A DNA stretch of 46,270 nucleotides from Actinomycetes bacterium (GTDB lineage: Bacteria; Actinomycetota; Thermoleophilia; RBG-16-64-13), in NCBI GenBank assembly GCA_021372435.1, contig JAJFUK010000145.1:1-46270 (forward strand), read 5' to 3'. The position numbers were made by a program, and so were the translations under genes. Position 1 is the first letter of the stretch. Each line of letters begins with the position of its first letter. The notes under the pieces were generated by a model. That model was not told the origin of the DNA. It saw only the letters and a program-made list of their open reading frames with translations, and made no database searches. Shown here piece by piece: positions 34,400 through 42,428 of the stretch.

Positions 34400-35686
34400 T
34401 TAGCCGCGCCGGTCGATCGGTATGTAGTCGCGTGGACCGAGGCCCGTGTACACCTGGCGAGGACGGTATAACGTAGCCCCGCCGTCGTTGACCTCTCTCC
34501 AGTTGGCGATCCAGCCGGGCATCCTGCCCATAGCGAATATCACCGGGAACATGTTCACCGGTATCCCCATGGCCCGGAGGATGACGCCGGAGTAGAAGTC
34601 CACGTTGGGGTACAGGCGGCGTTCGATGAAGTAAGGGTCGTTCAGGGCCACGTCTTCCAGGCGCTTGGCGATCTCCAGCAGGGGGTCGACGCCTTTGAGC
34701 CTACCCAGGAGCTTGTCTGCCATTTCTTTCATGATGCTCGCCCGCGGGTCGTAATGCTTGTAGACACGGTGGCCGAATCCCATGAGACGGAGGGGAGAGT
34801 CCTTGTCCTTGACCCGGGCTATGTGGTCGTTAAGGTCGACATTGTCGTCGTGCAGCCGTTGGAGCATCTCGACGACCGCCGCATTGGCGCCTCCGTGCAG
34901 GGGTCCCCACAGAGCGCACACACCGGCCGCGCAGCTTGCGAACATGTTGGCCCCGGAGGAGGCGACCATCCGTACCGTGCTCGACGAGCAGTTTTGCTCG
35001 TGGTCTGCGTGCAGGATGAGGATGAGCTGGAGCGCGGCCACCGTCTCAGGGTCGGGCTCATAGTCTCTGAACGGTATGGAGAACATCATGTGGAGGAAGT
35101 TGGTGCAGTAGTCGAGATGCGGCTTGGGATAGACGATCGGCTGCCCGATCGAGGTCTTGTAGCTGGCTGCGGCGATGGTGCGGATCTTGCTTATGAGGCG
35201 GGCCGCGGCCACCTGGAAGGTGGCCGGGCTCTCCATCTCCATCAAGCCCGGTTCGTAGCAACTCATGGCGTTGATCATCGCGGACAAGATGGCCATCGGG
35301 TGTCCGGTCGCCGGGAAACCGTCAAAGTGTTTGTAGAGCCCCTCGTGGATCATCTCGTACTTGGTGAAAAGGCCGCTCCAGCACCTCAGTTGTTCCCGAG
35401 TGGGAAGCTCGCCGTAGATCAGCAACCAGCATGTCTCCACAAAGGTGCTGTGGCGCGCCAATTGCTCTATCGGGATGCCCCGATAGCGCAGGATGCCCTT
35501 GTCTCCGTCGACGAAGGTGATGGCCGACCGGCATGACCCGGTGTTGAAGTAGCCTTCGTCGAGCGTGATATGCCCTGTAGCGTCACGGAGTCTCGCTATG
35601 TCGATAGCACGCTCGCCCTCAGTTCCGACCACGATGGGCAGGTCGTACGTCGCTCCATCGATAGTGAGTCTGGCCGTATCTGACAT
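34400..35686 (-). CDS. gltA: Citrate synthase, type I hexameric form
   Basis: Condenses oxaloacetate and acetyl-CoA to citrate. It is 428 residues from ATG 35686, the length of the larger, NADH-regulated bacterial type. Active-site segments are HADHEQNCSSSTVRMVASSG with the first catalytic His, LWGPLHGGANAAVVEML, and LMGFGHRVYKHYDPRASI with the second His; the later MGRMPGWIANWRE is also typical. The start is chosen because AAGGGTGG lies 5 bases upstream and the N-terminal beta domain (ARLTIDGATYDLP) then begins correctly. Divergent from korA, which consumes the later TCA intermediate 2-oxoglutarate. Confidence 0.95.
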   Translation of the reverse strand: MSDTARLTIDGATYDLPIVVGTEGERAIDIARLRDATGHITLDEGYFNTGSCRSAITFVDGDKGILRYRGIPIEQLARHSTFVETCWLLIYGELPTREQLRCWSGLFTKYEMIHEGLYKHFDGFPATGHPMAILSAMINAMSCYEPGLMEMESPATFQVAAARLISKIRTIAAASYKTSIGQPIVYPKPHLDYCTNFLHMMFSIPFRDYEPDPETVAALQLILILHADHEQNCSSSTVRMVASSGANMFASCAAGVCALWGPLHGGANAAVVEMLQRLHDDNVDLNDHIARVKDKDSPLRLMGFGHRVYKHYDPRASIMKEMADKLLGRLKGVDPLLEIAKRLEDVALNDPYFIERRLYPNVDFYSGVILRAMGIPVNMFPVIFAMGRMPGWIANWREVNDGGATLYRPRQVYTGLGPRDYIPIDRRG

Positions 35687-35821
35687 GTATGCCACCCTTC
35701 TCACTTTGTCACCGCCGCTCCCCGTCTGAACATCGCCGATCCAGGATTCGACCCCGGTCCTGAGGCGCCGCGTCAGGCGCGCAGGATAGTCTACCTTCCC
35801 CGCTGGGTGGGCACCGGATGG

Positions 35822-35827
35822 TAAACT
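35822..35827 (+). promoter_or_regulatory. -10 box TAAACT before korA
   Basis: TAAACT ends 10 bases before ATG 35838, with no Shine-Dalgarno. No convincing -35 is visible in the 151-base divergent gap. The rest of that gap shows only a fortuitous tRNA T-arm-like hairpin. Confidence 0.35.
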
Positions 35828-35837
35828 CCCCGATGAC

Positions 35838-37016
35838 ATGGAACCCTGGCACGGTCACCTTCTCAAAGAACGCGTCGATCAGAGCAGCCTGCTGATTCAG
35901 GGCAACCGGGCCTGCGTCTTAGGCGCCCTCGACGCGGGTGTGCGCTTTTATGCCGGTTACCCGATTACCCCCAGCTCCGAGATCATGGAGGCGATGGCCT
36001 TCGAGTTGCCGCGGGCCGGTGGAGTGTTCGTCCAGATGGAGGACGAGATAGCGTCCATCTGCGCCTGCATCGGCGCTGCGCTCACGGGCGAGGTAGCCAT
36101 GACCGCGACCTCCGGTCCGGGCTTCTCGCTCATGCAGGAGGCCATAGGGTACGCGATCATGGTCGAGGCGCCTTTGGTCATCGTGAACGTCATGCGGGCC
36201 GGGCCCTCGACGGGCCGGCCGACCGCCCCGTCGCAGGGGGACGTCATGCAGGCCCGCTGGGGCACTCACGGCGATCATCCCGCCATCGTTCTCGCGGCCT
36301 CGAATGTGGCCGACATGTACCGGCTGACCATGGCGGCAGTGCGTTTCGCTCTGCGCTTTCGGACGCCGGTGACCCTGCTTGCCGATCAAGTCGTGGGCCA
36401 GATGCGGGAGAGCTTCTCTGAGGAGTTGATCGGCCGGTACCGTCTTACCAGTGGCGACTTCGACTTCACGCCCGGGTATCTTCACCCCGACGTGGCGCGA
36501 GAGGTGCGCCGGCCCCACATCCTGGGCTCGGGCGAGCATCCTCACGTGACCGGGCTCTTCCACGACGAGACCGGTTTTCCGACCAACGACCCTGAGAAGA
36601 CCGATAAGTTCTTGCGCGACCTATACAACAAGGTGGCCCACCACCGCGACGAGCTCTGCCTGTACGATGTCAAGAACGAGGGCAACGGCCGGGTGTGCAT
36701 CGTCGCCTACGGTTCCTGCGCCAGAAGCGCCCGGGCGGCCTGGCGGTTGGCCGACCAGGAGGGCCTGTCTGTAGAGATCCTTCATCTCTACACGCTGTTT
36801 CCTCTGCCTGTGGAGATCATCCAGAAGGTGGCCAGGCGGGTGGAGTTCATGATCATCCCCGAACTGAACCTCGGCCAATACGCGCACGAGGTCCGCAAGA
36901 TGGCCGAGCAGTGGACCACGGTCATCGGAATGAACAAGACCGACGGGACGCTGATCACTCCACGCGAGATCCTCGACCGGATCGCCGAGCTCGTGGGCAA
37001 GTACGAGAGCGTGTAG
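35838..37016 (+). CDS. korA: 2-oxoglutarate:ferredoxin oxidoreductase subunit alpha KorA
   Basis: Part of a coenzyme-A-dependent 2-oxoacid oxidoreductase that reduces ferredoxin. A 392-residue alpha subunit with the pyrimidine-binding domain (GNRACVLGALDAGVRFYAGY, then PITPSSEIMEAMA), VQMEDEIASICACIGAALTG, ATSGPGFSLMQEAIGYAIM and PSTGRPTAPSQGDVMQARWG. These segments fit the KorA/VorB group better than pyruvate oxidoreductases. The transketolase C-like domain follows residue 270. Next to gltA, 2-oxoglutarate is the most likely substrate, but a branched 2-oxoacid is not excluded. No Shine-Dalgarno; see the -10 box at 35822. Confidence 0.88.
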   Translation: MEPWHGHLLKERVDQSSLLIQGNRACVLGALDAGVRFYAGYPITPSSEIMEAMAFELPRAGGVFVQMEDEIASICACIGAALTGEVAMTATSGPGFSLMQEAIGYAIMVEAPLVIVNVMRAGPSTGRPTAPSQGDVMQARWGTHGDHPAIVLAASNVADMYRLTMAAVRFALRFRTPVTLLADQVVGQMRESFSEELIGRYRLTSGDFDFTPGYLHPDVAREVRRPHILGSGEHPHVTGLFHDETGFPTNDPEKTDKFLRDLYNKVAHHRDELCLYDVKNEGNGRVCIVAYGSCARSARAAWRLADQEGLSVEILHLYTLFPLPVEIIQKVARRVEFMIIPELNLGQYAHEVRKMAEQWTTVIGMNKTDGTLITPREILDRIAELVGKYESV

Positions 37017-37019
37017 CCG

Positions 37020-37871
37020 ATGACCCTTGAGATAGAACAGCTCCTACACCGGGAGCGGCTGCCCCACATCTGGTGCGCGGGGTGCGGGGTGGGCATCGTC
37101 GCGGGAGCGTTTCTCCGTGCCGTCCTCGACCTCGGCCTCAAACGCGAGAACACCGTGGTAGTGAGCGGCATCGGCTGTTCGAGCCGGGCCGCCGGGTACA
37201 TCGATCTGAACACGGTGCATGCCATCCACGGCCGGGCGCTTCCCGTCGCCACAGGCATCAAGATGGCCCGTCCCGAGTTCACCGTGATAGTCCTCACCGG
37301 CGACGGCGACGGAGCGGCCATCGGGGGGAATCATCTCATCCACTCCTGCCGGCGCAACATCGACCTGACCTGCATCCTTTTCAACAATCAGATCTATGGG
37401 ATGACCGGAGGTCAGTTCTCGCCGACCACGGAACCGGGCGATATCGCTACCACTGCTCCTTACGGCCAGTTTGAGCCGCCGTTCGATCTCTGCCGCCTGG
37501 CCGAGGCGGCAGGCGCCACGTTCGTGGCCCGGGGGACGGCGGCCAACATCCGCCAGACCGAGAAGCTTATCAAGCAGGGCATCCAACACTGCGGCTTCTC
37601 GTTCATCGAGGCGGTGGTGCCCTGTCCTACGGAGTACGGCCGGCGTAACAAGCCCGCGAAAGCAGTGGACATGCTGGAGGCCGAACGGGCCCGGTCGATC
37701 TCCAAGACCAAGGCCGCCCGTCTCTCGCCCGAGGAACTAAGGGACAAGATCGTGACGGGAGTGCTGTACGAGGACACGCAGAAACCGGAGTTCCAGCGCA
37801 CCTACGCGGAGGTCAGCGCCGGCGTGCGGGCGCAGGTGGGCAGAAGGTTCGCTGAAGAGGACGAGAAATGA
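37020..37871 (+). CDS. korB: 2-oxoglutarate:ferredoxin oxidoreductase subunit beta KorB
   Basis: Thiamine-diphosphate-binding subunit of 283 residues. WCAGCGVGIVAGAFLRAV carries cluster-ligand cysteines. VVVSGIGCSSRAAGYIDLNT has another, and TVIVLTGDGDGAAIGGNHLI, then LFNNQIYGMTGGQFSPTTEP form the TPP-magnesium motif (GDGD...NN). All are intact. It starts 3 bases after korA and overlaps korC by four bases (ATGA). Confidence 0.92.
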   Translation: MTLEIEQLLHRERLPHIWCAGCGVGIVAGAFLRAVLDLGLKRENTVVVSGIGCSSRAAGYIDLNTVHAIHGRALPVATGIKMARPEFTVIVLTGDGDGAAIGGNHLIHSCRRNIDLTCILFNNQIYGMTGGQFSPTTEPGDIATTAPYGQFEPPFDLCRLAEAAGATFVARGTAANIRQTEKLIKQGIQHCGFSFIEAVVPCPTEYGRRNKPAKAVDMLEAERARSISKTKAARLSPEELRDKIVTGVLYEDTQKPEFQRTYAEVSAGVRAQVGRRFAEEDEK

Positions 37872-38530
37872 GCTCACCGGCGAACACACCCCAGGACCCG
37901 GCTATGAGCGGTGCTCGAGGAGGCACCTCTCCCGAACAGAAGCCCTGGGATCTCCTGGCCGGCCGTGACTTCATCGAGGTCCGTTTCGGCGGCAGCGGCG
38001 GCCAGGGAGTCATACTCATGGGAGTCATACTGGCCACGGCAGCCACCCTCGACCATCGTCGCGTCGTCCAGACTGAATCGTACGGGCCCGAAGCCCGGGG
38101 AGGCTACAGCCGGAGCGACGTCATCATCTCAAACGAAGCCGTGGACTACCCGGAAGTGGAGCGGGCCGATCTCCTCGTGGCCATGTCTCAGCCGGCGGCG
38201 ACACAGTACATCGGGTCCCTGCGGGAAGAGGGGATCTTCATCTACGATTCCGAGAGCGTCACAGAGCCTCCCTTGTTCCGCGGAACGACGTTCGCCGTTC
38301 CCTTTGCCCGGATGGCTCTGGAGGAGACCGGGCGGAAACAGACGACCAACATCCTGGCGCTGGGCGCCGTCGCCACTATCACCGGGATCGTGTTGGCGGA
38401 TTCGCTGCGCAAAGCGGTGATGGGCAAGGTGCCCCCCGGTACCGAGGAGCTGAACAGCCGGGCCCTCGCCCGGGGCTTGGCGCTGGACCCTGCAGAATGG
38501 CAGCGGGGCGGAGCGGGGGCACACTCGTGA
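37868..38530 (+). CDS. korC: 2-oxoglutarate:ferredoxin oxidoreductase subunit gamma KorC
   Basis: A 220-residue gamma subunit with the family core EVRFGGSGGQGVILMGVILA, ESYGPEARGGYSRSDVIISN and RADLLVAMSQPAATQY. About 35 extra N-terminal residues are low-complexity. With KorA and KorB it makes a three-subunit enzyme. The KorD ferredoxin subunit of four-subunit enzymes is missing, but a ferredoxin-like protein is encoded at 40437. After its stop comes repeat copy D, then the two ATPase genes on the same strand. Confidence 0.9.
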   Translation: MSSPANTPQDPAMSGARGGTSPEQKPWDLLAGRDFIEVRFGGSGGQGVILMGVILATAATLDHRRVVQTESYGPEARGGYSRSDVIISNEAVDYPEVERADLLVAMSQPAATQYIGSLREEGIFIYDSESVTEPPLFRGTTFAVPFARMALEETGRKQTTNILALGAVATITGIVLADSLRKAVMGKVPPGTEELNSRALARGLALDPAEWQRGGAGAHS

Positions 38531-38549
38531 CCCACAGCGCGCTCTTCGG

Positions 38550-38649
38550 ACTCGCTTCGAGATGAAGCCACGCCTCCACCGCATGCAAGGACGCCGCTTC
38601 GTGCCCTCCGGTGCGGACTCGGCGGCCGCCGCTTCATCTTGGATCGAGT
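38550..38649. repeat. Dispersed TIR-bounded repeat, copy D (100 bp, short form)
   Basis: ACTCGCTTCGAGATGAAGC (38550-38568) and GCTTCATCTTGGATCGAGT (38631-38649) are inverted repeats with 3 mismatches in 19. The ends match those of copies A-C, but the interior is shorter and lacks the conserved centre. It sits between korC and the BcrD-like gene, 19 bases after the korC stop. Confidence 0.75.
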
Positions 38650-38672
38650 AGTTGGCTTGGTAGGAGCTGCCT

Positions 38673-39455
38673 GTGCTTGTGGCCGGCATCGATGTGGGAG
38701 CGAAGAACGTCCACGCCGTCTTGCTTAGAGACGGGGTCCCCATAGCGCGGGTGGTGGTGGCCTCAGGGTTCGATCATGAGGGATCGGCCGGCCGGGGTCT
38801 GGACGAAGCCGCGGCCCTCGCGGGTGTGCGTAAGGAGGACATCGACCGGGTAGCTGCGACGGGGGCGGGACGCAAAGCCCTCGTTTTCGCTGCAGATCAG
38901 CCCACCGAGATCGCCGCCGATGCGCGGGGCGCCTTCGCCCTTTTCCCGCCGGCCCGGACGGTCATCGACGTGGGTGCCGACGAAGCCCGGGCGATCCGGC
39001 TCGGCCCCGGCGGGAAGGTGGTCGACTTCGCCATCAATGAGAAATGCGCGGCCGGAGCCGGCGCCTTTGTAGAAGCGATGAGTCGCGCCCTCGAGATGTC
39101 CTTGGAGGAGTTCGCCCGTGTCTCGCTCGATTCCACCGAGGTCATCCCCATGAACGCGCAGTGCACGGTGTTCGCCGAGTCGGAGGTGGTCAGTCTCATC
39201 CATGCCAACACCCCGCCGGCCGACATCGCCCGCGCCGTCCACGACGCGATGGCGGGCAGGGTGTCGACGGTAGTGCGACGCATCGGCATCGAAGATCCGG
39301 TCGTGCTCGGAGGCGGCACCGCCCTCAACGCCGGGTTCGTCAAGTCTCTTTCGTGCGCGCTCGGCGGGGTCGCCATCCAGGTGCTCGGGGAGGCTCCGTA
39401 CCTGGGAGCGCATGGGGCGGCCTTGATCGCCTGGGACGCGGCCCAGGGGGCTTAG
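38673..39455 (+). CDS. BcrD/BadG/BzdQ-type ATPase subunit (2-hydroxyacyl-CoA dehydratase activase family)
   Basis: A 260-residue ASKHA-fold ATPase. GIDVGAKNVHAVLL is the first phosphate motif, VIDVGADEARAIRL the second and VLGGGTALNAGF the adenosine motif. Cys125 in INEKCAAGAGAFVEAMSRAL and Cys164 in PMNAQCTVFAESEVVSL are the ligands of the [4Fe-4S] cluster shared by two subunits. The NEKCAAGAGAF form and the DVGADE variation (instead of GGQDxK) match the BcrD/BadG/BzdQ branch of class I benzoyl-CoA reductase rather than HgdC-type activators. GTG 38673 has AGGAG 7 bases upstream. It is probably a heterodimer partner of the next gene. Confidence 0.82.
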   Translation: MLVAGIDVGAKNVHAVLLRDGVPIARVVVASGFDHEGSAGRGLDEAAALAGVRKEDIDRVAATGAGRKALVFAADQPTEIAADARGAFALFPPARTVIDVGADEARAIRLGPGGKVVDFAINEKCAAGAGAFVEAMSRALEMSLEEFARVSLDSTEVIPMNAQCTVFAESEVVSLIHANTPPADIARAVHDAMAGRVSTVVRRIGIEDPVVLGGGTALNAGFVKSLSCALGGVAIQVLGEAPYLGAHGAALIAWDAAQGA

Positions 39456-39459
39456 ATCC

Positions 39460-40434
39460 GTGGACGGGCAAAGAGAGTTCTGGCGATGGAGCGAGAGGTC
39501 ATGGCAGGCGCCCGACCTCGACCGGCAGGCCGTCACGGCCGTAACGGCCGGCATCGATGTCGGTTCGGTCAGTTCCCAGGCGGTCCTGTTGGCCGGTGGC
39601 AGATTGGTGTCGTTCTTCTCAACCCGCACGGGCTCGTCGAGCCCCGACAGCGCGGTCCGGGCCTTCAAGGGCGCGGGCGAACCTCTCGGCATCACCCTGG
39701 ACGATGTGAGCTACACGGTCGGCACCGGGTATGGGCGGGTGAACGTGCCGTTCGCCGATCGGACCATCACCGAGATCGCCTGTCACGCCCGGGGGGCCAA
39801 CTTCATGGCCGGACCGGCGGTGCGCACCATCCTGGACATGGGCGGGCAGGACTGCAAGGTCATCCGCTGTGATGAGCGCGGCAAAGTGCTGAACTTCATA
39901 ATGAACGACAAATGCGCGGCCGGGACCGGCCGAGGTATGGAGGTCATCGCCGATGTGCTTTCGGTCCCGATCGAAGAGATCGGCCGGCGCTCGTTCGAGA
40001 TCGATGACGAACCGCCGCCGGTCAGCAACGTCTGTACGGTCTTCGCCAAGTCGGAGGCCACCTCGTTGCTCCGGGCCGGGTGGAGCGTCGAGCGGGTCCT
40101 GGCCGCCTACTGCGCGGCGATGGCCCAACGGGTCGCCGGTCTCATCGAGCGCATGGGCGTGGAGCGCGAGTTCTTCATCACCGGCGGGATCGGCAAGAAC
40201 GTCGGCGTGACCCGCCGCATCGAGCGCCTCATAGGGGTCGAGGCCCTGAGGCTGCCCGAGGACTCGGTGTTCGATCCGCAGATCGCGGGAGCGCTGGGCG
40301 CGGCGCTGTTCGCTCACTCTCTGCACCGGAAGAGGGAAAAAGAGAGGGGCGTCGCGGCAGGGGCGGGCGCCGTCATGCCGCCGGTGGATACCGCGGCGCG
40401 CAAGGACCTTTGGCCGCCGGCTGCGGGGCGGTAG
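39460..40434 (+). CDS. BcrA/BadF/BzdP-type ATPase subunit (2-hydroxyacyl-CoA dehydratase activase family)
   Basis: A 324-residue companion ATPase. AGIDVGSVSSQAVLL (30-44), TGYGRVNVPFADRTITEIAC (89-108), TILDMGGQDCKVIRC (123-137) and ITGGIGKNVGV are the nucleotide motifs. Cys152 in MNDKCAAGTGRGMEVIADVL and Cys192 in VCTVFAKSEATSLL bind the bridging [4Fe-4S] cluster. The MNDKCAAGTGRGMEVI form and TITEIACHARGAN are characteristic of BcrA/BadF/BzdP. It lacks the long N-terminal extension of some BcrA proteins. ATP hydrolysis would drive electrons to a very low-potential acceptor subunit. GTG start 4 bases after the previous stop, so the pair is made together. The tail (about 298-324) is Arg/Ala/Pro-rich. 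Confidence 0.85.
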   Translation: MDGQREFWRWSERSWQAPDLDRQAVTAVTAGIDVGSVSSQAVLLAGGRLVSFFSTRTGSSSPDSAVRAFKGAGEPLGITLDDVSYTVGTGYGRVNVPFADRTITEIACHARGANFMAGPAVRTILDMGGQDCKVIRCDERGKVLNFIMNDKCAAGTGRGMEVIADVLSVPIEEIGRRSFEIDDEPPPVSNVCTVFAKSEATSLLRAGWSVERVLAAYCAAMAQRVAGLIERMGVEREFFITGGIGKNVGVTRRIERLIGVEALRLPEDSVFDPQIAGALGAALFAHSLHRKREKERGVAAGAGAVMPPVDTAARKDLWPPAAGR

Positions 40435-40436
40435 CC

Positions 40437-40730
40437 GTGATCGCCAATTATGGATACGAGGACGGTTCAGGCTTCTACTACATCACCATCGACGGCGATC
40501 TGTGCGCCGTTTGCAGCCACCGGAGGTGTGTGGAGGCGTGCCCCCAGGGCGTGTACGCGATCGAGATGGACGACTACGACGAGTTCGTGGCTGTCGTCAC
40601 GGAAGCTGCCAGAAAGCGCCTGCGCGAACTCTGTTCACCCTGCAAGGGCCAGAACGGAGGCGGAGGACCGCAGCACAGACTGCCCTGCACCAGCGCCTGC
40701 CCGGCCGGCGCTCTACGGCACAGTTGGTAG
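40437..40730 (+). CDS. Two-cluster ferredoxin-like protein
   Basis: A 97-residue Fe-S protein. Cys23, 26, 31, 35 (CAVCSHRRCVEACPQG) and Cys66, 69, 84, 88 (CSPCKGQNGGGG, later PCTSACPAGAL) give two likely [4Fe-4S] sites with unusual Cx2Cx4Cx3CP and Cx2Cx14Cx3CP spacing. IANYGYEDGSGFYYITIDGD precedes the first site, and an acidic helix links the two. GTG start lies 2 bases after the BcrA-like stop. It probably carries electrons between the oxoglutarate oxidoreductase and the ATPase pair. This reading frame is only the end of a longer open frame overlapping the previous gene, hence the chosen start. Confidence 0.75.
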   Translation: MIANYGYEDGSGFYYITIDGDLCAVCSHRRCVEACPQGVYAIEMDDYDEFVAVVTEAARKRLRELCSPCKGQNGGGGPQHRLPCTSACPAGALRHSW

Positions 40731-40768
40731 GCGCGCGGCCGGTGGGTGCGGGCGGGGAGGGGTCCGCC

Positions 40769-41887
40769 GTGCATCTGCGGATAGACGGAGAGGCCGTCGC
40801 CGTCCCCGGCGGGTCGAGCATCCTGGATGCCTGTGATGCCGCCGGGCGCTACGTCCCTCGTCTGTGTCACTATCCCGGGCTGTCACGGCCCTGGGCAGCA
40901 GCCGAGGGAGGCGGCCCGGCACTCTGGGATGAATGCGGTCTGTGTGTGATCCGGTCGGGTGACGGGTCTGAGGTCCTCGCGTGTGCGACCGCCGCGGCTC
41001 CCGGCATGGAGATCGTTACCGACGACCCCGAGCTGCGGGCCATCCGGCTGGGGCGACTTGCGTCGATTCTGGCGGGGCACCCCCACATCTGCTTGAGCTG
41101 TCCCGACCGCGATGGTTGCTCTCGTGATGTCTGTACTTACGGCAATGCTCCTGAAGCGCGCTGCTGCGCCGAGTTCGGCCGGTGTGAACTGGGTGCGCTG
41201 GTGGGCTTCGTCGACGCCGCTCTGGCTCTGCCGCGCCGGGCGGTGACCGCGTCGCGTGATGCGGTCACCGAGGGACGGATCCGGCGGGAGATGGGGCTCT
41301 GTATCGGATGCGGACGCTGCGCGCGGATCTGCGACGAAGCGCCTGAAGCCGGCCGCGCGCTGGAGATGGGTGCCGCGGATGCGCCGGCGGCCGGCGCTCA
41401 GGAGCGGCCCCGGCCGGTCGCCCGGCCGAAGAAGGGGACGTTGCAGGCAGCGGGCTGCACCTTCTGCGGCCGGTGCGGCCCTGCATGTCCGGCGGGCGCC
41501 CTGAGTACGCCCGGTGGCGCAGGGGCGCGTCGGCCGGGCCGTCGGCGGGCCGGAAGCCGGCCGGCGACGCCTGTACTCCCCCCGGTGGGTCGGGAACCCC
41601 TGACGGAGCAGGCGGTCGGGGCCGTCCCGTCGAAGGCCGGCGTGCTTCATCTTCTGGACGGTGCAGGACGGGTGTTGCGCATAACCGGCGCCGCCGACGT
41701 CCGGCGGGCCCTTACCGAAGCCCTGGCCGGTCAGGCCCGCGGAGAGGCCGCGTACTTCCGGGTCGAGCTGGACGACCTCTACACCCAGCGTGAGAGTGAG
41801 CTTCTGGCCCGCTATGCGCAGCAAAACGGCCATCTTCCTCCCGGTAACGAGGTGGATGATGACCTGTTCGGCGATGATCTCCCGTAG
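40769..41887 (+). CDS. NuoG-like multi-cluster Fe-S protein with unusual C-terminal domain
   Basis: A 372-residue electron carrier. The N-terminal [2Fe-2S] domain has Cys33, 56, 59 and 72 (PRLCHYPGL, DECGLC, LACAT). A NuoG-like His/Cys site follows: His104 or 106, Cys108, 111 and 117 (HPHICLSCPDRDGC). Two [4Fe-4S] motifs follow: CIGCGRCARIC (178-188) and CTFCGRCGPACPAGAL (230-245). After an Arg/Pro-rich linker, residues 290-372 form a separate alpha/beta domain (GVLHLLDGAGRVLRI, YTQRESELLARYAQQNGHLP) ending DDDLFGDDLP, with no cysteines. GTG 40769 has GGGGAGGGG 5 bases upstream. It probably links ferredoxin or NAD(P)H chemistry to the BcrAD-like pair. Confidence 0.75.
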   Translation: MHLRIDGEAVAVPGGSSILDACDAAGRYVPRLCHYPGLSRPWAAAEGGGPALWDECGLCVIRSGDGSEVLACATAAAPGMEIVTDDPELRAIRLGRLASILAGHPHICLSCPDRDGCSRDVCTYGNAPEARCCAEFGRCELGALVGFVDAALALPRRAVTASRDAVTEGRIRREMGLCIGCGRCARICDEAPEAGRALEMGAADAPAAGAQERPRPVARPKKGTLQAAGCTFCGRCGPACPAGALSTPGGAGARRPGRRRAGSRPATPVLPPVGREPLTEQAVGAVPSKAGVLHLLDGAGRVLRITGAADVRRALTEALAGQARGEAAYFRVELDDLYTQRESELLARYAQQNGHLPPGNEVDDDLFGDDLP

Positions 41888-42428
41888 CGCAGACGCCGCC
41901 CCCGGCGGGCTGCTCTCGGGGCTCATCACCGTCGGAGTACTCTCCGATACGCACGGGGAGCTGCACCGGCAGGTGGCGCAGGCCCTGGCGGGAGTCGATC
42001 ACATCATCCACGCGGGCGACGTGGGAGCGGCGCAGGTCCTGGTCGAACTGAGAAGACTCGCACCGGTCACGGCCGTCAGAGGCAATTGCGATCTCGACGC
42101 TTGGGCGGAGGCCCTGCCCCTGAGGGCCGAGTTGGAAGTGGGCGGCGTCCGCATCCTGGTGGGGCACGTCGCCGCCAGGCTTCGCGATCGCCTGGAGACG
42201 GCCGCCGGAGATGGCGGGGACGGCTTCGCGGTCGTGATCAGCGGCCATACTCACCTGGCTGCTGTGGAGAGACGGGACGGGACGCTTCATCTCAATCCCG
42301 GGTCGGCAGGACCACGGCGGTTCGGACGTCCCCGGACCATCGCCCGGCTCACCATCCGGCCCCCCGTCGCGGACGAGCCGCGCGGCGCTCCTCATGTCGA
42401 TGTTGCGATCGTCACAGTCGATTCGTGA
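41859..42428 (+). CDS. YfcE/MJ0936-type metallophosphoesterase
   Basis: A calcineurin-like phosphodiesterase of about 189 residues. Metal-binding motifs are VGVLSDTHGE (DxH), IIHAGDVG (GD), AVRGNCDLD (GNCD), ILVGH, and VVISGHTHLA (GHTH), followed by HLNPGSAGPRRFG. All expected ligands are present. The first 25 residues before GLITVGVLSDTHGE are not conserved-looking. The start is uncertain: ATG 41859 has GAGG 6 bases upstream, ATG 41874 is another choice, and both lie inside the previous gene. The substrate is unknown; family members hydrolyse phosphodiesters in vitro. Confidence 0.82.
   Translation: MTCSAMISRSADAAPGGLLSGLITVGVLSDTHGELHRQVAQALAGVDHIIHAGDVGAAQVLVELRRLAPVTAVRGNCDLDAWAEALPLRAELEVGGVRILVGHVAARLRDRLETAAGDGGDGFAVVISGHTHLAAVERRDGTLHLNPGSAGPRRFGRPRTIARLTIRPPVADEPRGAPHVDVAIVTVDS

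Follow-up and report, generated by a model that had tools for sequence, protein, structure and literature searches.

The stretch of DNA analysed here (the window, 46,270 nt) is contig JAJFUK010000145.1 of assembly GCA_021372435.1, from a bacterial family known mainly from metagenomes. It carries the genes of a 2-oxoacid:ferredoxin oxidoreductase (KOR), followed by those of two ATPases, a ferredoxin and a further iron-sulfur protein. From the sequences, the module is firmly assigned as the activator of a BZD-type class I benzoyl-CoA reductase, placed behind KOR. Its usual catalytic partner is not beside it, and its probable target is another iron-sulfur enzyme, so far undescribed, whose genes lie at a different place in the genome. 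The reading proposed, with a probability of roughly 60%, is that the KOR-fed BzdPQ-type activator energises in trans a double-cubane enzyme, here named HgdX1/HgdX2, in a clade in which neither bzdNO nor BamA was found. The genes of the module are tightly packed on the plus strand at 35838-41887:

35838..37016, plus strand: korA, alpha subunit of 2-oxoacid:ferredoxin oxidoreductase (POR_N; NF006412, 472.4 bits, cut-off 411)
37020..37871, plus strand: korB, beta subunit, thiamine diphosphate-binding (TPP_enzyme_C, PF02775, E 6.7e-35)
37868..38530, plus strand: korC, gamma subunit (POR, PF01558, E 2.4e-35)
38673..39455, plus strand: ATPase 1 (ATP1), BzdP orthologue (PF01869; TIGR00241, 196.0 against a cut-off of 125.4; BzdP clade)
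39460..40434, plus strand: ATPase 2 (ATP2), BzdQ orthologue (TIGR03192, 401.7 against a cut-off of 380.2; BzdQ clade)
40437..40730, plus strand: two-cluster ferredoxin (FdX) in the BzdM position (motifs CxxCx4CxxxC and CxxCx14CxxxC; PF13187, E 7.5e-5, under its cut-off)
about 40769..41887, plus strand: NuoG/HoxU-like iron-sulfur protein, BzdV-type without the FAD/NAD(P) region (PF13510 (Fer2_4), PF12838 (Fer4) and PF24348)

Gene and Pfam calls agree with the initial annotation of this DNA on the nature, position and common orientation of these genes. The best NCBIfam models of korB and korC are the 2-oxoglutarate:ferredoxin oxidoreductase beta subunit (302.6 bits) and the 2-oxoacid:ferredoxin oxidoreductase gamma subunit (179.7 bits), both under their cut-offs (364 and 235).

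Both ATPases match the Pfam family BcrAD_BadFG (E 9.5e-45 and 1.4e-54). The initial annotation had placed them in the BcrD and BcrA branches, as a benzoyl-CoA reductase activator pair of the Thauera type. A BcrA or BcrD identity was rejected, the best scores being 138.1 of 578 bits (TIGR02259, BcrA) and 117.2 of 312.85 (TIGR02261, BcrD), far under the cut-offs, and the TIGR03192 score puts the BZD type in place of that label. A tree of 76 domains groups ATPase 1 with the BzdP proteins (support 0.997). ATPase 2 belongs to the BzdQ clade, which also holds the Aromatoleum sequences (support 0.93, or 1.0 with the second copy of genome G076). The DCCP-associated and other activases branch away from both. 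The cysteines first picked out as cluster ligands, Cys164 of ATPase 1 and Cys192 of ATPase 2, were confirmed, with Cys125 and Cys152 as their respective second ligands. Cys152 and Cys192 are invariant in all 11 aligned copies of ATPase 2; alignment A1 leaves out G058, whose two ATPases share one frame.

Among 299 genomes sampled from the class, 18 had an ATPase match at E <= 1e-30, and 12 of these matches were orthologues at an identity of at least 73%, all in the window's family. ATPase 1, ATPase 2 and FdX were found together in 12 family genomes. Eight genomes of the window's clade have the order korABC-ATPase 1-ATPase 2-FdX (kor layout). Four genomes (G080, G070, G076 and G040) have ATPase 1-ATPase 2-FdX without kor (layout b). 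The gene order first noted thus recurs, except that the NuoG-like gene is present in only 7 of the 12 blocks and is not a core member. Compared with the window genome (G000), dN/dS is <0.05 to 0.22 for ATPase 1, 0.06-0.11 for ATPase 2, 0.08-0.29 for FdX, 0.11-0.17 for HgdX2, 0.19-0.29 for HgdX1 and 0.22-0.36 for the NuoG-like gene, the fastest of all; dS is high and the values are rough, but they point to purifying selection. Since the two ATPases and FdX stay together in 12 genomes at low dN/dS, the grouping is not due to chance. Other genes lie between the ATPases in G052 and G064 (loci L042 and L044); those scanned include nucleotidyltransferase-like genes in both and a Wzz-like gene in G052. 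Both ATPases are kept in these genomes though 6-10 kb apart.

The block could be taken for the decaying remnant of a benzoyl-CoA reductase operon, without present function. The loss of the fast-evolving NuoG-like gene from 5 of the 12 blocks and the insertion of unrelated genes between the ATPases in two genomes would fit such decay. It is nevertheless highly improbable, because dN/dS is low throughout the module and HgdX. Moreover, the eight cysteines of FdX are kept in 12 of 12 family members, the two cluster cysteines of ATPase 2 do not vary, and both ATPases persist even when separated.

As the initial annotation had stated, the catalytic subunits are not at the locus, and a search of the window genome with PF06050 (HGD-D) found no bzdNO. 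This search for HgdA/HgdB-type proteins gave a single pair, HgdX1 (413 aa) and HgdX2 (413 aa), on contig C170 and unlinked to the ATPases. HgdX is likewise the sole HGD-D pair in G010 and G034. The supposition that the module serves a reductase encoded elsewhere has thereby gained a concrete candidate; the pairing itself is argued indirectly, from elimination, shared presence and absence, and ligand conservation. In a tree, none of the PF06050 matches of the eight kor-layout genomes (87-97% complete) groups with BzdN or BzdO. HgdX1 scores 16.3 of 453.8 bits with the BzdN model, and no BzdO match was listed for HgdX2.

The window genome is a draft of 197 contigs (2.8 Mb, 96% complete, the window being contig C115). 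A missed bzdNO, and with it a conventional BZD benzoyl-CoA reductase whose operon is split, could be imagined in such an assembly. The chance of this is very small, as the same absence is met in all eight kor-layout genomes and BamA is over its cut-off in none of the eight. The BamA model (TIGR03200) gave no match in the window genome, so that BamA-dependent benzoate degradation was rejected there. Benzoyl-CoA degradation in general is unlikely for the same reason, the search having covered BamA and not the class II reductase (BamB) or other pathway genes. In contrast to the kor-layout genomes, BamA is over the cut-off in 4 of 4 layout-b genomes and in 3 of 6 other family genomes searched (G022, G028 and G092).

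The ligand pattern of HgdX suggests what kind of enzyme it may be. The cluster ligands of BzdNO are given in the structure paper (PMC11971306). BzdN and BzdO numbering was set on the A. evansii rows by these published cysteines, BzdO numbering starting one residue before the first Met. N-terminal overhangs of HgdX1 were trimmed before the beta-side alignments; alignment A2 leaves out G040 (frame break), and A3 holds eight HgdX1 copies. Aligned to A. evansii BzdN, 10 of 10 full-length HgdX1 rows have all six double-cubane cysteines, and a truncated row (L108) has the three that it covers. The same six are found in 7 of 7 BzdN rows, in the neighbouring L076 row and in 8 of 8 rows of the DCCP clade (two of which were scanned, both over the DCCP cut-off). 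Beyond BzdN, the DCCP side and HgdX-like pairs, 15 further beta-side rows were compared, and none of them has the full set. All 11 full-length HgdX2 rows keep the equivalents of Trp46, Glu65, Cys95, Cys128 and Cys380 of BzdO. In the trees, each of the two subunits makes up a clade on a long stem, separate from BzdN/BzdO. Searched against the PDB, the HgdX1 profile gave the double-cubane protein 7yyl/6eno first (E 6e-15) and BzdN next, and the HgdX2 profile gave the alpha subunit of 2-hydroxyisocaproyl-CoA dehydratase first (E 9.6e-10).

HgdX1/HgdX2 might be energised as proposed and be a 2-hydroxyacyl-CoA dehydratase, in which one electron is recycled, rather than a net reductase. In its favour are the HgdX2 match to a dehydratase and the CoA-transferase genes that flank HgdX in kor-layout genomes; among these is a glutaconate-CoA-transferase-like pair, found in six of the seven loci read, with the seventh cut off by its contig end. 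We consider a dehydratase unlikely, if far from negligible, given that HgdX1 has the six cysteines missing as a set from the 15 other beta-side rows and matches double-cubane proteins and then BzdN best. Furthermore, the scores of HgdX2 with HadB (37.9 of 750 bits) and of HgdX1 with HadC (22 of 700 bits) are under the cut-offs, and no CoA-transferase was seen beside HgdX in layout-b genomes or G092. Besides the CoA-transferases, LeuA-like and aconitase-like genes (named by eye) flank HgdX in kor-layout genomes. These neighbours are a weak hint at the substrate, because layout-b genomes have no CoA-transferase by HgdX. A gene with an NYN domain (L004:15251-16129; Pfam was run on L004 only) lies 3' of HgdX2 in 11 of 12 HgdX loci, sometimes with genes between, and in the twelfth the contig stops before it. 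Contig C170 also encodes, at about 10 kb from HgdX, a 385-aa protein with two 4Fe-4S motifs (L004:1413-2570) that reads as reductive-dehalogenase-like; Fer4 domains alone matched.

The distribution of HgdX agrees with a link to the ATPase pair. HgdX2 was found in 12 of the 299 class genomes and the ATPase pair in 12, with 11 common to both. On an rpoB tree, presence and absence of the two agree in 15 of 16 family genomes; G032 was dropped from this tree (wrong stretch taken, branch 4.8), and G080 and G092 gave no rpoB match. The absences fall in three separate groups (G022 and G028; G004 and G016; G097, 76% complete), so that two or three shared gains or losses are apparent. Parsimony gives three changes for the ATPases and four for HgdX, and a naive tip shuffle, which ignores relatedness, gives P = 0.0014. 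PF01869 proteins in G000, G010 and G034 comprise only the window-type pair and one fused protein. The fused 1312-aa double-ATPase protein (C43) was considered as the HgdX activator and rejected, as this kind is also found in G004, G016, G022, G028 and G097, which have neither HgdX nor the ATPase pair.

Distant relatives of HgdX occur in 52 of 396 genomes of the phylum at E <= 1e-25, the window's included, many of them only partial. All 14 fully read distant pairs, of which 13 were found by the phylum search in four other families and the last in a deltaproteobacterium (L247), have a six-Cys beta subunit and a W-E-C-C-A-C alpha subunit. A flavo-diiron/A-type flavoprotein-like gene (by eye) lies close to distant pairs in 7 of 13 contexts (L250, L251, L252, L254, L255, L256 and L261, of families f26 and f40).

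The activator could instead serve an acceptor outside the HGD-D family, for example a corrinoid protein or another low-potential enzyme, HgdX being activated otherwise. ATP-dependent activation of corrinoid proteins is said to exist (PMC6739815), HgdX and the ATPases are unlinked, and HgdX-like pairs elsewhere have a single ATPase in cis (L247 and L260) or none that was seen over the DNA read (11 other contexts). Such an acceptor appears less likely still than a dehydratase: the ATPases belong to the BzdP and BzdQ clades, which are known to work with an HGD-D dimer, and HgdX is the sole HGD-D pair in G000, G010 and G034 besides agreeing with the ATPase pair in distribution.

Several observations weigh against activation of HgdX1/HgdX2 by this module. 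HgdX is unlinked to the ATPases in 11 of 11 genomes with both, on different contigs or, in G076, more than 1 Mb apart. G052 (87% complete) has the ATPases without HgdX, and G092 (64%) has HgdX without an ATPase. In G040, a nearly complete genome, HgdX2 (L109, G040:C5:104289-105514) is split by a frame break, which could be an assembly error or a decaying copy. The co-occurrence was seen within one family, on a small tree with several weak nodes whose supports may be displaced by re-rooting. The four layout-b genomes carry HgdX as well, in addition to a different HGD-D pair next to the ATPases, and the ATPases may hence have more than one partner. The single cis ATPase of the distant pairs L247 and L260 indicates that the HgdX-like fold does not require a PQ pair. 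The acid/base residue His131 of BzdO is replaced by Lys in 11 of 11 full-length HgdX2 rows and in truncated L109, and the ligands were assigned by alignment of distant sequences. The electron supply is touched by two further points. A short BzdV-type protein is likewise encoded in G076 and G080, where no kor adjoins, and in the non-family locus L167; its truncation is hence not tied to kor in cis. Weak kor homologues occur further off in 5 of 74 BzdQ loci outside the family, the best being L129 (about 9 kb downstream, 41-49% identity), so that KOR near bzd genes is not peculiar to the window's family.

These outside loci were obtained by scanning genomes for the ATPase 2 family and keeping the 80 best of 579 confirmed loci, a selection that spans many phyla. 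Six of the 80 belong to the window's family and 74 come from elsewhere. bzdN and/or bzdO was found upstream in 58 of the 74, and 12 more end at a contig edge. The remaining four (L136, L138, L164 and L185) have a bzdPQ-type ATPase pair with at least 3 kb upstream and no bzdNO. They are other possible orphan activators, and further HGD-D proteins are encoded in the genomes of three of them (L136, L138 and L185). korABC was directly upstream in 0 of 62 non-family loci with upstream DNA. An FdX homologue is present in 67 of the 74 loci, and FdX would therefore occupy the BzdM position and may act as an electron donor, the role described for BzdM in PMC5658619. FdX gave no match in three Aromatoleum loci (L149, L176 and L184), and is thus perhaps not the same protein as Aromatoleum BzdM.

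The NuoG-like protein sheds light on where the electrons may enter. Outside the family it has matches at 53 loci, each to an open frame or a frame pair, and 45 of these are open frames of 828-1025 aa. Nearly all of the long frames (44 of 45) align in two pieces, NuoG-like residues 1-~245 and ~269-370, with several hundred subject residues between; the frame of L153 aligns over the first piece only, and seven other loci are cut or split. In the two long examples scanned, the region absent from the NuoG-like protein holds Fer4_20 and Pyr_redox_2. All seven family copies are without this middle region. By position and domains, the protein would be of BzdV type minus the FAD/NAD(P) region. A short BzdV-type protein of this kind outside the family is encoded in Pelotomaculum PtaU1.Bin035 (L167:2201-3232). 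According to PMC5658619, BzdV is putatively an NADPH:ferredoxin oxidoreductase. NAD(P)H is unlikely to feed in electrons through the NuoG-like protein, and KOR would be the natural source, as the seven copies have no middle region and the gene is missing from 5 of 12 blocks. The initial annotation took the locus for a complete electron supply and activation module; this is partly supported, with KOR, the activator pair and the ferredoxin confirmed and the NuoG-like gene not a core member. Its appeal to KOR as electron source for a class I reductase has precedent in Thauera and some R. palustris strains, according to PMC9973337. The same paper reports korAB in the benzoate cluster of two R. palustris strains and an Nfn-like aadN in six strains without korAB, the two being mutually exclusive among the strains.

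The following mechanism is proposed, in which we infer every electron-transfer step and the pairing of the ATPases with HgdX. KOR would oxidise a 2-oxoacid, probably 2-oxoglutarate, to which the citrate synthase neighbour described below is suggestive only, and reduce the BzdM-like ferredoxin. The ferredoxin would reduce the [4Fe-4S] cluster of the BzdPQ-like dimer; two cysteines per subunit are seen, and their bridging of the cluster is assumed from the known family. ATP hydrolysis would then drive the electron into the separately encoded HgdX1/HgdX2 via transient docking. The six cysteines of HgdX1 are predicted to hold an electron-collecting [8Fe-9S] double cubane, and HgdX2 is predicted to hold an open [4Fe-4S] site acting on the substrate, probably a CoA thioester. 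For BZD-type enzymes, PMC11971306 predicts no more than a transient association between the PQ and NO dimers. This makes action in trans plausible, and separated genes less strange than they would be for BcrABCD.

As for the history of the locus, two neighbours flank the kor block:

34400..35839, minus strand: citrate synthase gene (Pfam PF00285, E 2e-131), divergent from korA
41790..42428, plus strand: phosphoesterase-like gene (named by eye), at the downstream edge of the block

A citrate synthase homologue also adjoins kor in G058, G064, G046, G010 and G034. Orthologues of korA (79-94% identity) are present in 13 other family genomes, of both layouts and in G004 and G016, which have no ATPases. 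In the latter two, a gnd-like gene (by eye) lies between korC and the same phosphoesterase-like gene as in the window. A single clade unites the ATPases of the kor layout (support 1.0 for ATPase 2 and 0.985 for ATPase 1), which the tree allows either within those of layout b or next to them. Elsewhere the common order is bzdNOPQ, and the most economical history is therefore one in which a bzdPQM block entered the kor locus of one clade; the direction of this move is deduced. The gap between korC and ATPase 1 is 142 bp in the window and at most 10 bp, or an overlap, in G058, G046, G086 and G034 (gene starts set mechanically). A sequence scan found no terminator-like site in this gap and no promoter-like site.

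In the layout-b genome G076, true BzdN (567.4 against a cut-off of 453.8) and BzdO (584.4 against 448.6) are encoded directly upstream of the orthologous ATPases. In G040, the ATPases are followed by genes of an enoyl-CoA hydratase, an ApbA-type dehydrogenase and an acyl-CoA ligase (Pfam), and similar neighbours were seen by eye in G080, G070 and G076. The layout-b genomes also have an HGD-D pair beside the ATPases. G076 carries in addition a second, divergent ATPase pair (L052, G076:C1:1665000-1684500) with 33-48% identity to that of the window. It adjoins a very divergent HGD-D pair whose beta-side row is without most cluster cysteines.

Taken further, these data suggest, at somewhat less than even odds, that a benzoyl-CoA reductase activator was freed from aromatic degradation and captured by a 2-oxoacid (probably 2-oxoglutarate) oxidoreductase to drive HgdX in trans, and that ATP-driven double-cubane enzymes acting on a non-aromatic substrate may form a class that has escaped recognition. 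A literature search, limited for subscription papers, found no description of a kor-bzdPQ arrangement without bzdNO, and publications on the lineage added nothing further. If KOR-fed activation of HgdX is true, a second heterodimeric double-cubane family with a nameable activator and electron source would become available as a testable system. It would also mean that the energetically costliest step of anaerobic aromatic degradation can be re-used elsewhere. Moreover, bzdPQ/bcrAD-like genes alone are an unsafe basis for calling benzoate degradation in a genome.

Compared with known systems, the module is closest in its parts to the BZD system of Aromatoleum/Azoarcus (BzdNOPQ, BzdM and BzdV), with which it shares BzdP and BzdQ orthologues, a ferredoxin in the BzdM position and a BzdV-type remnant. 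In contrast to that system, it has korABC in front, no BzdN/BzdO or BamA was found with it, and its BzdV-type protein is without the FAD/NAD(P) region. With the KorAB supply of Thauera, as presented in PMC9973337, it has in common a KOR that adjoins the activator and is expected to reduce ferredoxin. Unlike in Thauera, this KOR is the family's own korABC, which often lies by citrate synthase and which other members possess without having the ATPases, and the reductase is missing. DCCP (6ENO, 7YYL) is the best PDB match of HgdX1, which keeps the six cysteines of the DCCP-clade rows; HgdX differs as a heterodimer with a BzdO-type alpha subunit, whose proposed activator is a two-gene BzdPQ pair. 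As for BzdNO (8S02), HgdX departs from it by the Lys in place of His131, by a BzdN score far from the cut-off with no BzdO match, and by its separate clades. By alignment, the two nonetheless share a double-cubane beta subunit and a three-Cys alpha subunit with Trp46 and Glu65.

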